64,000 nt of DNA from Candidatus Methanoperedens sp. (GTDB lineage: Archaea; Halobacteriota; Methanosarcinia; Methanosarcinales; Methanoperedenaceae), in assembly GCA_028715885.1 (NCBI GenBank), contig JAQUQX010000002.1, forward strand, positions 62,001-126,000, written 5' to 3'. Below, piece by piece: positions 50,860 through 54,542 of the stretch (position 1 is the first letter of the stretch; each line of letters opens with the position of its first letter). The notes below the pieces were generated by a model, which saw only the letters and a list, made by a program, of their open reading frames with translations, was not told where the DNA came from and did no database searches. The position numbers and the translations under genes were made by a program.

Positions 50860-52161
50860 TCACAGGAAATACATTATCACAGGCAGCATTATTACTCCCA
50901 TTGCATGCGTTTTTCTTATTTTCGCATACGATGCCGTCATTCCGACGGGAATGGATATTAAAAATACGGCAAACCCAAACCAGCCTGTAAACATAAAAAC
51001 CATAAGAGAGAGTCCTGCCAGAACTGTTGCGCTCAGTTTTGAATAGTTTATCCCTGACAGGAACCCCGAAATCCTGTCTCCAAGGAAAATCGTGGTATAG
51101 TACGAAATCACTGAAACATACACTATAACGATTAATAAAATTACGATAACAGAAAAATCCCAATCACTTATATTGACCAGTTTATCAATCGATACCATTG
51201 CGCCGCTTCTTGCCTTCCCGATGATATACAGGGCAATAAGGCTAAAAACCGCATTGGCTGTATTTGCACTGCTTATTGATACCATGAATTCTTTTGACGA
51301 GCCCTCATCCTTTTCCTCGCGGACAATAAGCCTTGCGATTATTGTGCCCACGGTTGATGAGACGCCGGGAAGCCATGCTACAAACGAACCTGCCGCGCTT
51401 CCTGCTACCATCCCGCGCACAATCCTCTTCCGGGGAAGCTCAAACCTGCATGTTTTTTGCTGGGGCGGGACTTCCGATTTTGTCATCAGGCTGATAATAA
51501 GCATTGAAGCACCGAACAGCCCTGATAGAAGGGGAAGAAGAATTGAGGGTTCGCCGAATTTAACAAGTGGCTGCATCATTCCCTGATTGTCGAATGCAAA
51601 GATACCAAGCATTCCTGAAATAAAAAACAGGAGGATGGCATATAACTTGAATTTAAGATGCACAAGCGACCCCTGACCTTCCACCACTTCCCCGTTCTCG
51701 GTGGCTATCATCAATATCACAATCAAAACAAGAATCCATCCGATGTAATCATTTATCGCGCCGTATATGTTCATGAAAAAATAGCCCATGGGCAGAGCCA
51801 TGAGAAGCGAGACCACGACCGCGCCCGCGCTCCCGAGGGCTGAAAGGCGCACAGCCTCTGCACCCCTCCCTTCCATGAGCAGCGCATGACCGGGAAGCAC
51901 AGCCAGCGCAGTATCTGGCTCAGGCGCGCCCAGGAAAATCGAGGGGATTATGTCAAGGAAGGTGTGCGCTATGGAATTTGAGAGGATTACAACTGCTATG
52001 TAGAAGGGTGCAAACCCGATGCTCTGGAAGTACGGTGACAGCGCCACGAGGAGCAGGGCGAAGTTATTGACGTGGATGCCGGGCGTGAGACCCGAAATGA
52101 TGCCGAGGAAGAAGCCGAAGAAGATGGAGAGAATGAGTAGGGTGAGGGATATTTCTTGCAT
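50860..52161 (-). CDS. Archaeal TctA-like permease (COG1784)
   Basis: The 433-residue protein consists of about eleven hydrophobic helices. It starts with FFLGIISGLTPGIHVNN and has GSAAGSFVAWLPGVSSTVG in the middle: the two glycine/proline-rich half-repeats of the tripartite tricarboxylate transporter TctA fold. No TctB or TctC gene is near, in line with the archaeal subgroup whose substrate is unknown. GLTPGIH and LPGVSS are probably the two halves of the substrate site. Confidence 0.7.
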   Translation of the reverse strand: MQEISLTLLILSIFFGFFLGIISGLTPGIHVNNFALLLVALSPYFQSIGFAPFYIAVVILSNSIAHTFLDIIPSIFLGAPEPDTALAVLPGHALLMEGRGAEAVRLSALGSAGAVVVSLLMALPMGYFFMNIYGAINDYIGWILVLIVILMIATENGEVVEGQGSLVHLKFKLYAILLFFISGMLGIFAFDNQGMMQPLVKFGEPSILLPLLSGLFGASMLIISLMTKSEVPPQQKTCRFELPRKRIVRGMVAGSAAGSFVAWLPGVSSTVGTIIARLIVREEKDEGSSKEFMVSISSANTANAVFSLIALYIIGKARSGAMVSIDKLVNISDWDFSVIVILLIVIVYVSVISYYTTIFLGDRISGFLSGINYSKLSATVLAGLSLMVFMFTGWFGFAVFLISIPVGMTASYAKIRKTHAMGVIMLPVIMYFL

Positions 52162-52300
52162 GGCTTGAGCCTGTACTCAATTTCATTATAAAAAGTATGC
52201 GTTTTGTGATTTTTGAAAGATTATGATTGTAACCCTGAGGATTATGTTACACTCCCTTATGTTCCTAAAACAAACTTAAATGCAGGGAATCGTAATATCA

Positions 52301-53227
52301 CTATGATTTTATTATTTTATTACTAAAATCAAAAAGCGTTAGTTTATTTTTAATTTTTTCCTTCTCTAATTTCCCCCATTCTTCTAATGTTTTTATATAT
52401 TTATTTAAATATCTATGCAACGTCTTATCGTCCATGACATAATCCATAATGTTTTTTGCAGCTTTTTCATTATTACTTCCATAAATCAGATAATATATTG
52501 TTCTCTGTGTTTGTTTTAAGGACTGAACGTGCCTTATTGGTACACTTTTAACAACCGAATAACCAGCTACTTCACCTAACCTTTTCTTATATAGATTAAC
52601 AATTTCTTCTTCAAATTCACGAATTTCCAACACTCCATTTCTCTTTTTTTCATAAAGTTGTTTCCAATCATCACATCCAAAGAAATTTGTGATGCCTTCA
52701 GGATCATTTTCCCAGTTATTATACGCATTCATAGTGTAAAATGGTAGATGAATAATAATGTCAGTACCGTAAGGCTTTTTATGGTGAGCAATATTTTCAA
52801 CAGTATTCCATTTTAGTTCATTGTATTTTGTGATATCTAACAAAATAGTGACTACAGTGAAGGGGGATATTTTATCCAGTACTTCAAATATTTTTAGATT
52901 TGCATCTCCCTGCAAACATTTCACATTTTTTATTGTGCCGATATAGCTTTCTAGATCACTAAAATTTTTAGAGTCATTTTCTATAAAAACGCAACTTATT
53001 TTTTTTGATTTTTCAGGATTCAATTTTTCGATTGCTATTAGAGGCGAACCTGCTATCAATTTATTTATTCCCCAATCAGAATCTTCAAAATGTACTTTTC
53101 CCGGACCCGAATAGCCATCTATATAAAGAAAATTGGGCTTTCGCTCGGATTCAAATAAAATCTTGCATGCTCCAAGATATTTTTCGATGATTTCATATTT
53201 TTTTAGAGTATGTCTTACAATATCCAA
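52301..53227 (-). CDS. tcmP: Three-Cys-motif partner protein TcmP
   Basis: The 308 residues have a Rossmann-like N-terminal domain with FLYIDGYSGPGKVHFED, CVFIENDSKNFSDLE and VKCLQGDANLKIFEVLD, resembling a class I methyltransferase fold. An alpha-helical C-terminal region with VKSVPIRHVQSLKQTQRTIY follows. This matches the family named for genes paired with a three-cysteine radical SAM protein. The usual fourth strand motif DPFG/DPYG is replaced by LLDITKYNELKW. The gene starts 4 nt after such a radical SAM gene. The function of the family is unknown. Confidence 0.75.
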   Translation of the reverse strand: MDIVRHTLKKYEIIEKYLGACKILFESERKPNFLYIDGYSGPGKVHFEDSDWGINKLIAGSPLIAIEKLNPEKSKKISCVFIENDSKNFSDLESYIGTIKNVKCLQGDANLKIFEVLDKISPFTVVTILLDITKYNELKWNTVENIAHHKKPYGTDIIIHLPFYTMNAYNNWENDPEGITNFFGCDDWKQLYEKKRNGVLEIREFEEEIVNLYKKRLGEVAGYSVVKSVPIRHVQSLKQTQRTIYYLIYGSNNEKAAKNIMDYVMDDKTLHRYLNKYIKTLEEWGKLEKEKIKNKLTLFDFSNKIIKS

Positions 53228-53231
53228 TATA

Positions 53232-54185
53232 TCACCAAATACAATTACACCTGATTTTCTTATAATCCAACCTTATCTTTTCCCACATCTCAACAGTCTC
53301 CTTGCACAAAGCAACCCCTGTATAACCATATTTATTTTTTAAATAATCAATAAGCATCGAGTACATTTCATACCTGAGTTCAGAATCTATCTTTTTACCC
53401 CAATTTGATTTTTCAGATAGGAATTTCACCCATGTCTTATCTTTAGAATTATTTATCGTACTCTGAAGCCCTCTCAGCGAACCAAGAGTGATTCTTTCAG
53501 GAGTAAATTGCTCAAAAATCATATCTACAAGTTTTTTATAATGCTTATCCCATTCAAAAACCGGAACCATCGGGTCTATTCGAATTCTCGTTTCATACCC
53601 AGCCTCGCTCACCTTTCTTGCCGCTTCAATTCTATCTTCAACTCGTGGAGCTTTCTCCCACTTTTTTGATACAGCAGGAGCATTCATACTAAAACTTACA
53701 ATAACATTTCTATGCTCATCGATTTTCAATAAATTATCAACATTCGTTGATTTTGTCAAGAAAAGCACTTTATGCTTTTTTTGAGCTTCAAACAATGGAA
53801 TAATGAATTTTGAAAACGGGTCATTCGAATGTTCAGACAGTAATGAATCACTTAATTCGCCTGTATTCAATATTTCGGGAAGAGAACCGTTATTCAAAAA
53901 TGTGCTGACATGTTCTTTCACTCTAAAACGGTCTTTTTGTCTTGGCTGTTTTCCTGTAAACCTGAATGTTCCCTGCAAAAAACACCAGGCGCAGTCATAA
54001 GCACACCCATTTGCCCATTTCAATTCTAAAAAATGAGGGCAGATAACATCAGTCTTTTTTTCTGGTAGCGGGGTTTTTTCAAATCTGCAAATTATGGAGC
54101 CATCCCCGACCCTCTGGACAAGACTTTTTTTAGAACCATCTATCGTCGGATATACCTGTTTTTTTATCTGCATTATAGGTTCCAT
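53232..54185 (-). CDS. Three-cysteine-motif radical SAM protein (SPL-like)
   Basis: The 317 residues have LKWANGCAYDCAWCFLQGTF, with radical SAM cluster cysteines at 61, 65 and 68. TRIRIDPMVPVFEWDKHY in the barrel resembles spore-photoproduct-lyase-type enzymes. The region before the cluster (residues 1-55) is short. It is the first gene of a two-gene unit with the TcmP gene. A GATATATTT box lies close to the ATG, so the message may be almost leaderless or translation may begin at the Met at residue 5 (54173). SPL-type repair of DNA is only one option; the three-Cys pairing argues for an unassigned RNA/DNA or peptide modification. Confidence 0.7.
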   Translation of the reverse strand: MEPIMQIKKQVYPTIDGSKKSLVQRVGDGSIICRFEKTPLPEKKTDVICPHFLELKWANGCAYDCAWCFLQGTFRFTGKQPRQKDRFRVKEHVSTFLNNGSLPEILNTGELSDSLLSEHSNDPFSKFIIPLFEAQKKHKVLFLTKSTNVDNLLKIDEHRNVIVSFSMNAPAVSKKWEKAPRVEDRIEAARKVSEAGYETRIRIDPMVPVFEWDKHYKKLVDMIFEQFTPERITLGSLRGLQSTINNSKDKTWVKFLSEKSNWGKKIDSELRYEMYSMLIDYLKNKYGYTGVALCKETVEMWEKIRLDYKKIRCNCIW

Positions 54186-54470
54186 TTACTTAAATCCTGA
54201 TAAATATATCTAATTTAGTATCATGTTACATTGTATATACAACTATAGTAAGCAGGGCGAAAGTATTCAGTTCTAATTGTCGAATCTTCGTTCATCGGCG
54301 TCATGCCATCCACTGTGTATAGACACGTGTTCCACCTACTGCGAAGCAATACGTGTGGGCGACACCAACTGTGGCAACGGTTGACATGGATGCGCCCTTC
54401 CGAGACTCGACTCGGGGCGTACATCTGCGTTTTATAAATTCATTACCCCAAAAAATACATCAAAACTATA
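54186..54470. other. Intergenic stretch upstream of the radical SAM gene
   Basis: This gap of about 285 bp contains the promoter region of the radical SAM gene, the 12-bp palindrome TTGTATATACAA (54231-54242) and the second copy of the repeat-like segment (54388 onward). A 67-codon frame at 54221-54424 on the minus strand (VDGMTPMNEDSTIRTEYFRP) looks like the relic of a mobile-element or integrase gene, but I cannot match it. I see no further gene. Confidence 0.5.
54388..54427. repeat. Intergenic repeat-like segment, copy 2
   Basis: GGATGCGCCCTTCCGA (54388-54403), GACTCGGGG (54409-54417) and then ATCTGCGTT match the order of the copy at 24803-24850, with one mismatch in the first block. This copy ends about 45 bp from the 3' end of the tRNA-Cys gene. 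ACGTGTTCC/ACGTGTGGG and GACACC flank it on the other side. Confidence 0.4.
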
Positions 54471-54542
54471 AGCCAAGGTCCGGAGTCGAACCGGATTGGA
54501 ATCGCTCTGCAGGCGATTGCGTAGCCGTTCCGCCACCTTGGC
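54471..54542 (-). tRNA. tRNA-Cys (anticodon GCA)
   Basis: The minus strand folds into a complete 72-nt cloverleaf. The acceptor stem is GCCAAGG/CCTTGGC, the D stem GCG/CGC with a GGC-containing loop, and the anticodon stem ATCGC/GCGAT around CTGCAGA, whose central GCA reads cysteine codons. The T arm is TCCGG-TTCGACT-CCGGA. The discriminator base is U, the usual identity element for tRNA-Cys. CCA is not encoded and no intron is present. A TATA-like TTATCTATAA at 54561-54570 lies about 23 nt upstream of the first base, a normal archaeal spacing. Confidence 0.93.

Follow-up and report, generated by a model that had tools for sequence, protein, structure and literature searches.

A conserved radical SAM enzyme with an exchangeable TcmP partner in Methanoperedens and other prokaryotes

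What does a two-gene unit do when TcmP proteins and their three-cysteine partners carry database names without function, and why does one of the two genes vary so much more than the other? The question is raised by a stretch of 64,000 nucleotides from Candidatus Methanoperedens sp. (contig JAQUQX010000002.1), here called the window, in which a radical SAM (rSAM) gene is followed by a TcmP gene.

The pair and its surroundings in the window

The rSAM gene (53232-54185, minus strand) begins with ATG and encodes 317 amino acids (aa). It was assigned from its open reading frame (ORF) and the SPL model PF20903, and it is the constant component of the pair. The TcmP gene (52301-53227, minus strand) encodes a 308-aa member of TIGR04474 and starts with TTG, with GGTGAT upstream. 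It is the variable component and belongs to class A of those described below. In the window ORFs, the TcmP start codon lies 4 nt past the rSAM stop codon. A preliminary description of this DNA had named two adjacent ORFs and the cysteines Cys61/65/68, and all of these were recovered. It had also placed the pair in an accessory stretch next to a tRNA gene. This agrees with a G+C content of 0.32-0.35 over the pair against 0.41-0.50 in the surroundings, with an adjoining tRNA-Cys gene (GCA; 54471-54542, minus strand; a neighbour only), and with clean empty sites and an rSAM gene in 7 of the 31 genomes of the genus (13 of 394 in the phylum).

The region upstream of the rSAM gene (54186-54300, no strand assigned) is partly conserved together with the pair in other genomes. 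Its match in G026 covers query positions 1-114 at 88% identity, and shorter matches occur in G005, G015, G009, G025 and G030; the region probably serves as the promoter or leader of the rSAM gene. A dispersed repeat of about 150 bp at 54283-54433 is a separate observation. It is found in 26 of the 31 genus genomes, with 14 matches in G022, and it has conserved ends and also occurs with a short middle. The repeat has no Rfam match and an ordinary folding energy, and an Rfam search around the pair gave no match either.

Integration at the tRNA site was considered and rejected for want of both an integrase and a duplicated tRNA end. No integrase-like ORF was noted on inspection of the ORF list between 47 and 60 kb, and the 3' end of tRNA-Cys has no second copy within the window and none past the other end of the pair. 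Inspection of the ORF list likewise revealed no defence-gene neighbours and no restriction nuclease beside the window pair; such a nuclease is encoded at some relatives' loci.

TcmP alleles are replaced beside a conserved rSAM gene

In six related genomes, the pair occupies one site, between a gene for an FAD oxidoreductase and pyrK. The two flanks of this site lie on separate contigs in G005, G009 and G025; in G009, the 3' end of TcmP was recovered beside pyrK on the second contig. For G030, only the pyrK side is counted as shared, because the FAD homologue was found on another contig. The empty site, with the FAD gene directly next to pyrK and no pair, is present in G006, G014 and G001. The window copy has been relocated: its neighbours are a permease gene and tRNA-Cys, no pair is present at the pyrK locus of the same genome, and the FAD gene that usually accompanies the pair was not found in this genome. 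The permease/tRNA-Cys junction (52161-54542) looks rearranged, and its flanks are on different contigs in several relatives. The variable location proposed in the preliminary description therefore holds for the window copy, whereas the relatives' pair stays at a fixed site and it is TcmP itself that varies most. Mobility by integration is not supported: to the missing integrase and tRNA duplication is added a usual Methanoperedens site made up of two ordinary metabolic genes.

The proteins at these loci diverge very unequally. Among Methanoperedens-like genomes, the rSAM proteins are 83-96% identical whatever the TcmP class beside them, and at the fixed site the flanking FAD proteins and PyrK are 80-93% and 79-89% identical, respectively. 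TcmP proteins of these genomes share 76-95% identity within a class and 22-38% between classes. Class A comprises the window copy and that of G009 (77% identical); class B, those of G026 and G025, the latter in two parts because of a frameshift in its assembled sequence; class C, those of G005 and G032 (another genus, 76%), together with a broken copy in G030; and class D, that of G015. In alignments of G015 with G026 and G025, the DNA ceases to be homologous no more than about 10 nt from the rSAM stop codon and is homologous again from about 15-18 nt ahead of the TcmP stop codon; the TcmP gene alone has therefore been replaced. The G025 locus combines a TcmP of the G026 class (95%) with an rSAM and an FAD gene that are nearer to those of G009. 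The broken class C copy of G030 (L071, 9771-10459) lies in fragments next to an intact rSAM gene.

A second Methanoperedens TcmP (327 aa) is encoded together with a DUF5131-type rSAM in a Type I restriction-modification (R-M) operon, in which an HsdR-like and an HsdS-like gene enclose the two; the R-M labels rest on sequence resemblance and the rSAM type on the PADLOC B models. The genome of the window has one such operon (G000:C25; L057, 8688-10412), in the order HsdR, rSAM, TcmP, HsdS, HsdM. Over successive segments of the alignment, the R-M-linked rSAM is 80-100% identical, except for one short segment at the C-terminus, whereas the central part of its TcmP (about residues 90-240) occurs as two alleles that are 40-67% identical, with more conserved ends. 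In temperate Gordonia phages (L275-L279), the genes for immunity repressor and integrase flank a TcmP gene and a convergent DUF5131-type rSAM gene. Here the rSAM is 92-97% and the metalloprotease 94-97% identical, and TcmP falls into three classes with 23-29% identity between them. Phages Bosnia and Easley have matching DNA on the repressor side (89%) and on the rSAM side (87%); their TcmP genes are not shared. Gene-exact replacement of TcmP alleles has thus taken place in three separate settings.

The rule extends further. Across 58 loci from many phyla of Archaea and Bacteria, at least two TcmP classes occur in 9 of the 12 rSAM clades, a clade being defined by at least 72% identity and the Methanoperedens loci forming one of the 12. 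Among locus pairs with rSAM proteins at least 90% identical, 62% have TcmP proteins less than 40% identical, pairs within one clade not being independent of each other. Rapid TcmP evolution under relaxed constraint, with no exchange, would account for the low median identity of TcmP (25-31%), which is seen however similar the rSAM proteins are. However, among close relatives the identity is bimodal, either 76-98% or about 22-38%, the breakpoints coincide with gene ends, the catalytic residues are conserved, and classes are common to different species and phage genera, which makes this explanation extremely improbable.

The two protein families and their known relatives

The window rSAM matches the Pfam SPL model PF20903 with 65.1 bits (cut-off 27). 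Its CxxxCxxC motif at Cys61/65/68 is invariant in all 79 aligned members of the family, which have four further invariant cysteines (C49, C294, C313 and C315 in window numbering) and may hold an auxiliary Fe-S cluster. The family spans Archaea to Bacteria at 42-92% identity. Its core is SPL-like, with a profile match to PDB chain 4fhg (E 4e-15), so that core fold and CxxxCxxC are shared with spore photoproduct lyase. The window enzyme differs from that lyase by its four additional cysteines and at the catalytic residue: the hydrogen-donor Cys140 (G. thermodenitrificans numbering) aligns with Glu110, invariant in 79 of 79 family members.

Because spore photoproduct lyase is the nearest match in both fold and sequence, the rSAM might be a photolyase-like DNA repair enzyme that TcmP helps to locate lesions. 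This is very unlikely. Besides the glutamate at the position of the catalytic cysteine, the match to the NCBIfam SPL equivalog spans part of the protein and reaches 74.5 bits, far below the cut-off of 400, and many bearers come from sediment, groundwater or vents, according to their record titles. A repair function would also leave unexplained the exchange of TcmP alleles and the placement in lysogeny modules.

The window TcmP belongs to the NCBIfam family TIGR04474, three-Cys-motif partner protein (137.7 bits, cut-off 53), whose name carries no function. Its predicted structure (mean pLDDT 86) has the E. coli methyltransferase RlmJ as top Foldseek matches (6qdx/7p9i; E 5.6e-9, TM about 0.5, 13% identity), and hhalign gives the TcmP profile a probability of 85.6% for RlmJ against 0.5% for RsmJ, an unrelated control. 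RlmJ requires K18 and D164, and its SAM contacts are S100, E118 and D143 (PMC3814359). The counterparts of the catalytic residues are K10, present in 40 of 40 TcmPs, and D131, present in 41 of 41; K10 is assigned to K18 by motif position, since the hhalign span begins after it. The SAM-contact counterparts are S61 (39/40), E/D83 (38/41) and D108 (about half). Fold, YxDxxAGxG, GSPLIA, the acidic motif II and the catalytic Lys and Asp are thus common to RlmJ and TcmP, whereas the long insertion that RlmJ has between motif I and GSPLIA is missing from TcmP, and the TcmP motif IV departs from DPPY. There, D131 (41/41) and P132 (35/41) are retained, and the second Pro-Tyr is not kept: most TcmPs have DP, a variable residue and often Gly (DPxG), and the window protein has DITK. 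Some classes have a changed GxG motif. To TIGR04474, this analysis adds the RlmJ fold, an apparently obligate pairing with rSAM in the sample, and allele exchange.

Longer TcmPs have a predicted C-terminal helical domain that, by inspection, resembles a winged helix. Some C-termini (L137, L132 and L267) are clamp-binding-like, for example QRSLFDF and QPTLFDF. A PIP-like Q..[ILM]..[FYW] pattern occurs within the last 20 residues of 6 of 50 TcmPs and 3 of 593 other ORFs; the strict two-aromatic form is found in none of the 50, and the window TcmP is without the Gln. A possible clamp-binding peptide at the TcmP C-terminus is a weak lead, the idea having arisen from the same sequences as the count.

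Since RlmJ, to which the TcmP fold is closest, is the 23S rRNA m6A2030 methyltransferase, TcmP might act on rRNA or tRNA, with the rSAM performing a second step, for example for protection against nucleases or antibiotics. Other radical SAM enzymes act on RNA. Modification of RNA nevertheless appears decidedly unlikely, although less so than DNA repair. Fixed rRNA targets would not favour such extreme TcmP diversity, and the company of R-M genes and the winged-helix-like domain of longer TcmPs favour DNA, as does, weakly, the clamp-binding-like peptide in a minority of TcmPs.

Related pairs are already listed as defence candidates in PADLOC. The candidates PDC-M30 and PDC-M41 resemble the window pair in being two-gene units of a TcmP ("A") and an rSAM ("B") with a constant/variable pattern, and the window TcmP matches the PDC-M41A model (48.3 bits, E 3e-13). 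No PADLOC model, including the PDC-M30 and PDC-M41 B models, matches the window rSAM, whereas DUF5131-type partners reach 175-366 bits against the B models. The window pair differs from the candidates by this enzyme, which belongs to a longer, SPL-like family with four extra invariant cysteines. A single phage rSAM is matched by the B models of both candidates, at 366 and 351 bits, whereas the two A models are different, and this points independently to the constant/variable rule. In the literature searched, no published mechanism was found for PDC-M30/PDC-M41, DUF5131, COG1533/4422 or a combination of RlmJ and radical SAM.

Partnership, genomic context and a proposed function

A genome scan returned 80 loci of the window-type rSAM in Archaea and Bacteria, all at the identity range given above, and IMG/VR contributed four more contigs. 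No close carriers of the window rSAM were found among phages, and a plasmid search with it gave distant SPL-type matches only. TcmP is present at 62 of 84 rSAM loci, counted with a profile in which the rSAM part of fusion proteins was masked. Eleven are single-ORF fusions, all bacterial and with the TcmP part first, as in L149 (719 aa), which scores 194.5 bits against TIGR04474 and also matches SPL models. Conversely, an rSAM of one of at least four kinds is neighbouring or fused at all 29 archaeal TcmP loci examined, and any TcmP was detected in 38 of the 394 phylum genomes. One further TcmP (L073), on a short G005 contig, has no rSAM in view. In this sample TcmP is thus rarely if ever alone and rSAM sometimes is; as about a quarter of its loci (22 of 84) are without TcmP, the rSAM may have other uses. 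A tandem SPL-like paralogue of about 360 aa, giving two rSAMs with one TcmP, occurs at L140, L163, L180, L182, L199 and L212-L214.

Several loci are closely packed with R-M genes on one strand. An Eco57I/Type IIG gene precedes TcmP at L161 and L153, and at L122 a Type IIG gene ends 3 nt before the rSAM gene. An N6_Mtase gene is followed by an HsdS gene overlapping rSAM at L143, and a ResIII gene (L167) or a DUF1156 methylase gene (L192) lies beside it elsewhere. TcmP-less rSAM genes directly beside R-M, Schlafen-AlbA, YhcG nuclease or DUF1156 genes were seen at L141, L143, L156, L158, L167 and L192, which suggests that the same rSAM may have other partners there. In Sinorhizobium meliloti, one putative transcriptional unit is reported to contain both the TcmP gene SMa2243 and the phage-defence gene hna (PMC12445080).

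The preliminary description had suggested defence or mobile-DNA biology and proposed mapping neighbourhoods for an enrichment in defence genes. The mapping gave a divided answer. Within the 25 families listed, genes proximal to the pair included four Eco57I, four N6_Mtase and two ResIII matches, none of which appeared among the top families listed for distal genes, but N6_N4_Mtase matched three proximal and three distal genes. R-M neighbours occur at a minority of loci, and many neighbours are housekeeping or ordinary metabolic genes. Because family counting is ambiguous, the argument from context rests on the named operons. The broader suggestion is borne out by R-M operons, lysogeny modules, the hna unit and the PADLOC candidates, and not by the window, with its missing integrase, or by the metabolic-gene site of its relatives.

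That TcmP is swapped as a cassette while the rSAM is kept, in chromosomes, R-M operons and lysogeny modules alike, suggests that TcmP carries a specificity kept diverse by selection. We regard the pair, at about even confidence, as an accessory two-component nucleic-acid modification system that most probably protects against invading DNA or takes part in competition among mobile elements. The RlmJ-like catalytic residues of TcmP suggest that it marks nucleic acid. As a SAM-dependent enzyme, it would recognise a particular nucleic-acid target, chosen by its own sequence, and mark it by transferring a methyl or related group; predicted fold and residue conservation are no proof of such a transfer. 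The product of TcmP would then undergo a single, fixed radical reaction by the rSAM, which would either build the mark up to a hypermodified base or take it away and so let the cell survive its own TcmP. A very different TcmP allele would be tolerable because the rSAM acts on the shared product and not on the TcmP sequence. The fusions fit finishing and erasing alike, whereas the rarity of solitary TcmP, the occurrence of solitary rSAM and the broken TcmP of G030 slightly favour erasing.

Erasing is also central to an alternative in which TcmP is a toxin that damages nucleic acid and the rSAM reverses the damage, as DarG reverses DarT; the TcmP alleles would strike different targets, with lesion chemistry and eraser unchanged. 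The asymmetry of the partnership (TcmP without rSAM at 0 of 29 archaeal loci, rSAM without TcmP at 22 of 84), the intact rSAM beside the broken TcmP in G030, and a lesion-reversing enzyme as nearest solved rSAM are in its favour. An unchanging antidote would be expected to go with a varying toxin only where the chemical product on which the antidote acts is common to the toxin alleles. This alternative is nonetheless unlikely: the 11 fusions unite both activities in one chain, the rSAM part is interrupted in L206, and some solitary rSAMs belong to R-M operons and probably have a different role there.

The modification system that we favour invites comparison with Type I R-M systems, in which hsdS is an exchangeable specificity component beside constant partners. 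The two work alike in this respect, but here it is usually a whole methyltransferase-fold gene that is replaced, and the window pair is without a restriction subunit. The pair is not an ordinary R-M system, because no nuclease accompanies it in Methanoperedens or in the phages.

What is new here is how the two genes vary, a constant rSAM beside an exchangeable TcmP. More tentatively, such pairs might represent a radical-SAM form of self/non-self marking used by archaea, bacteria and temperate phages, in which TcmP alleles are the counterparts of R-M specificities and produce a new nucleic-acid mark. An exchangeable RlmJ-fold TcmP would then program one conserved radical enzyme, and lineages would have the chemistry in common but not the target. 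The pair becomes testable through a TcmP-dependent nucleoside, the effect of alleles on target or phage range, and finishing versus erasing by the rSAM. Should the pair serve in defence, it would bring in a radical-SAM chemistry other than that of the prokaryotic viperins.
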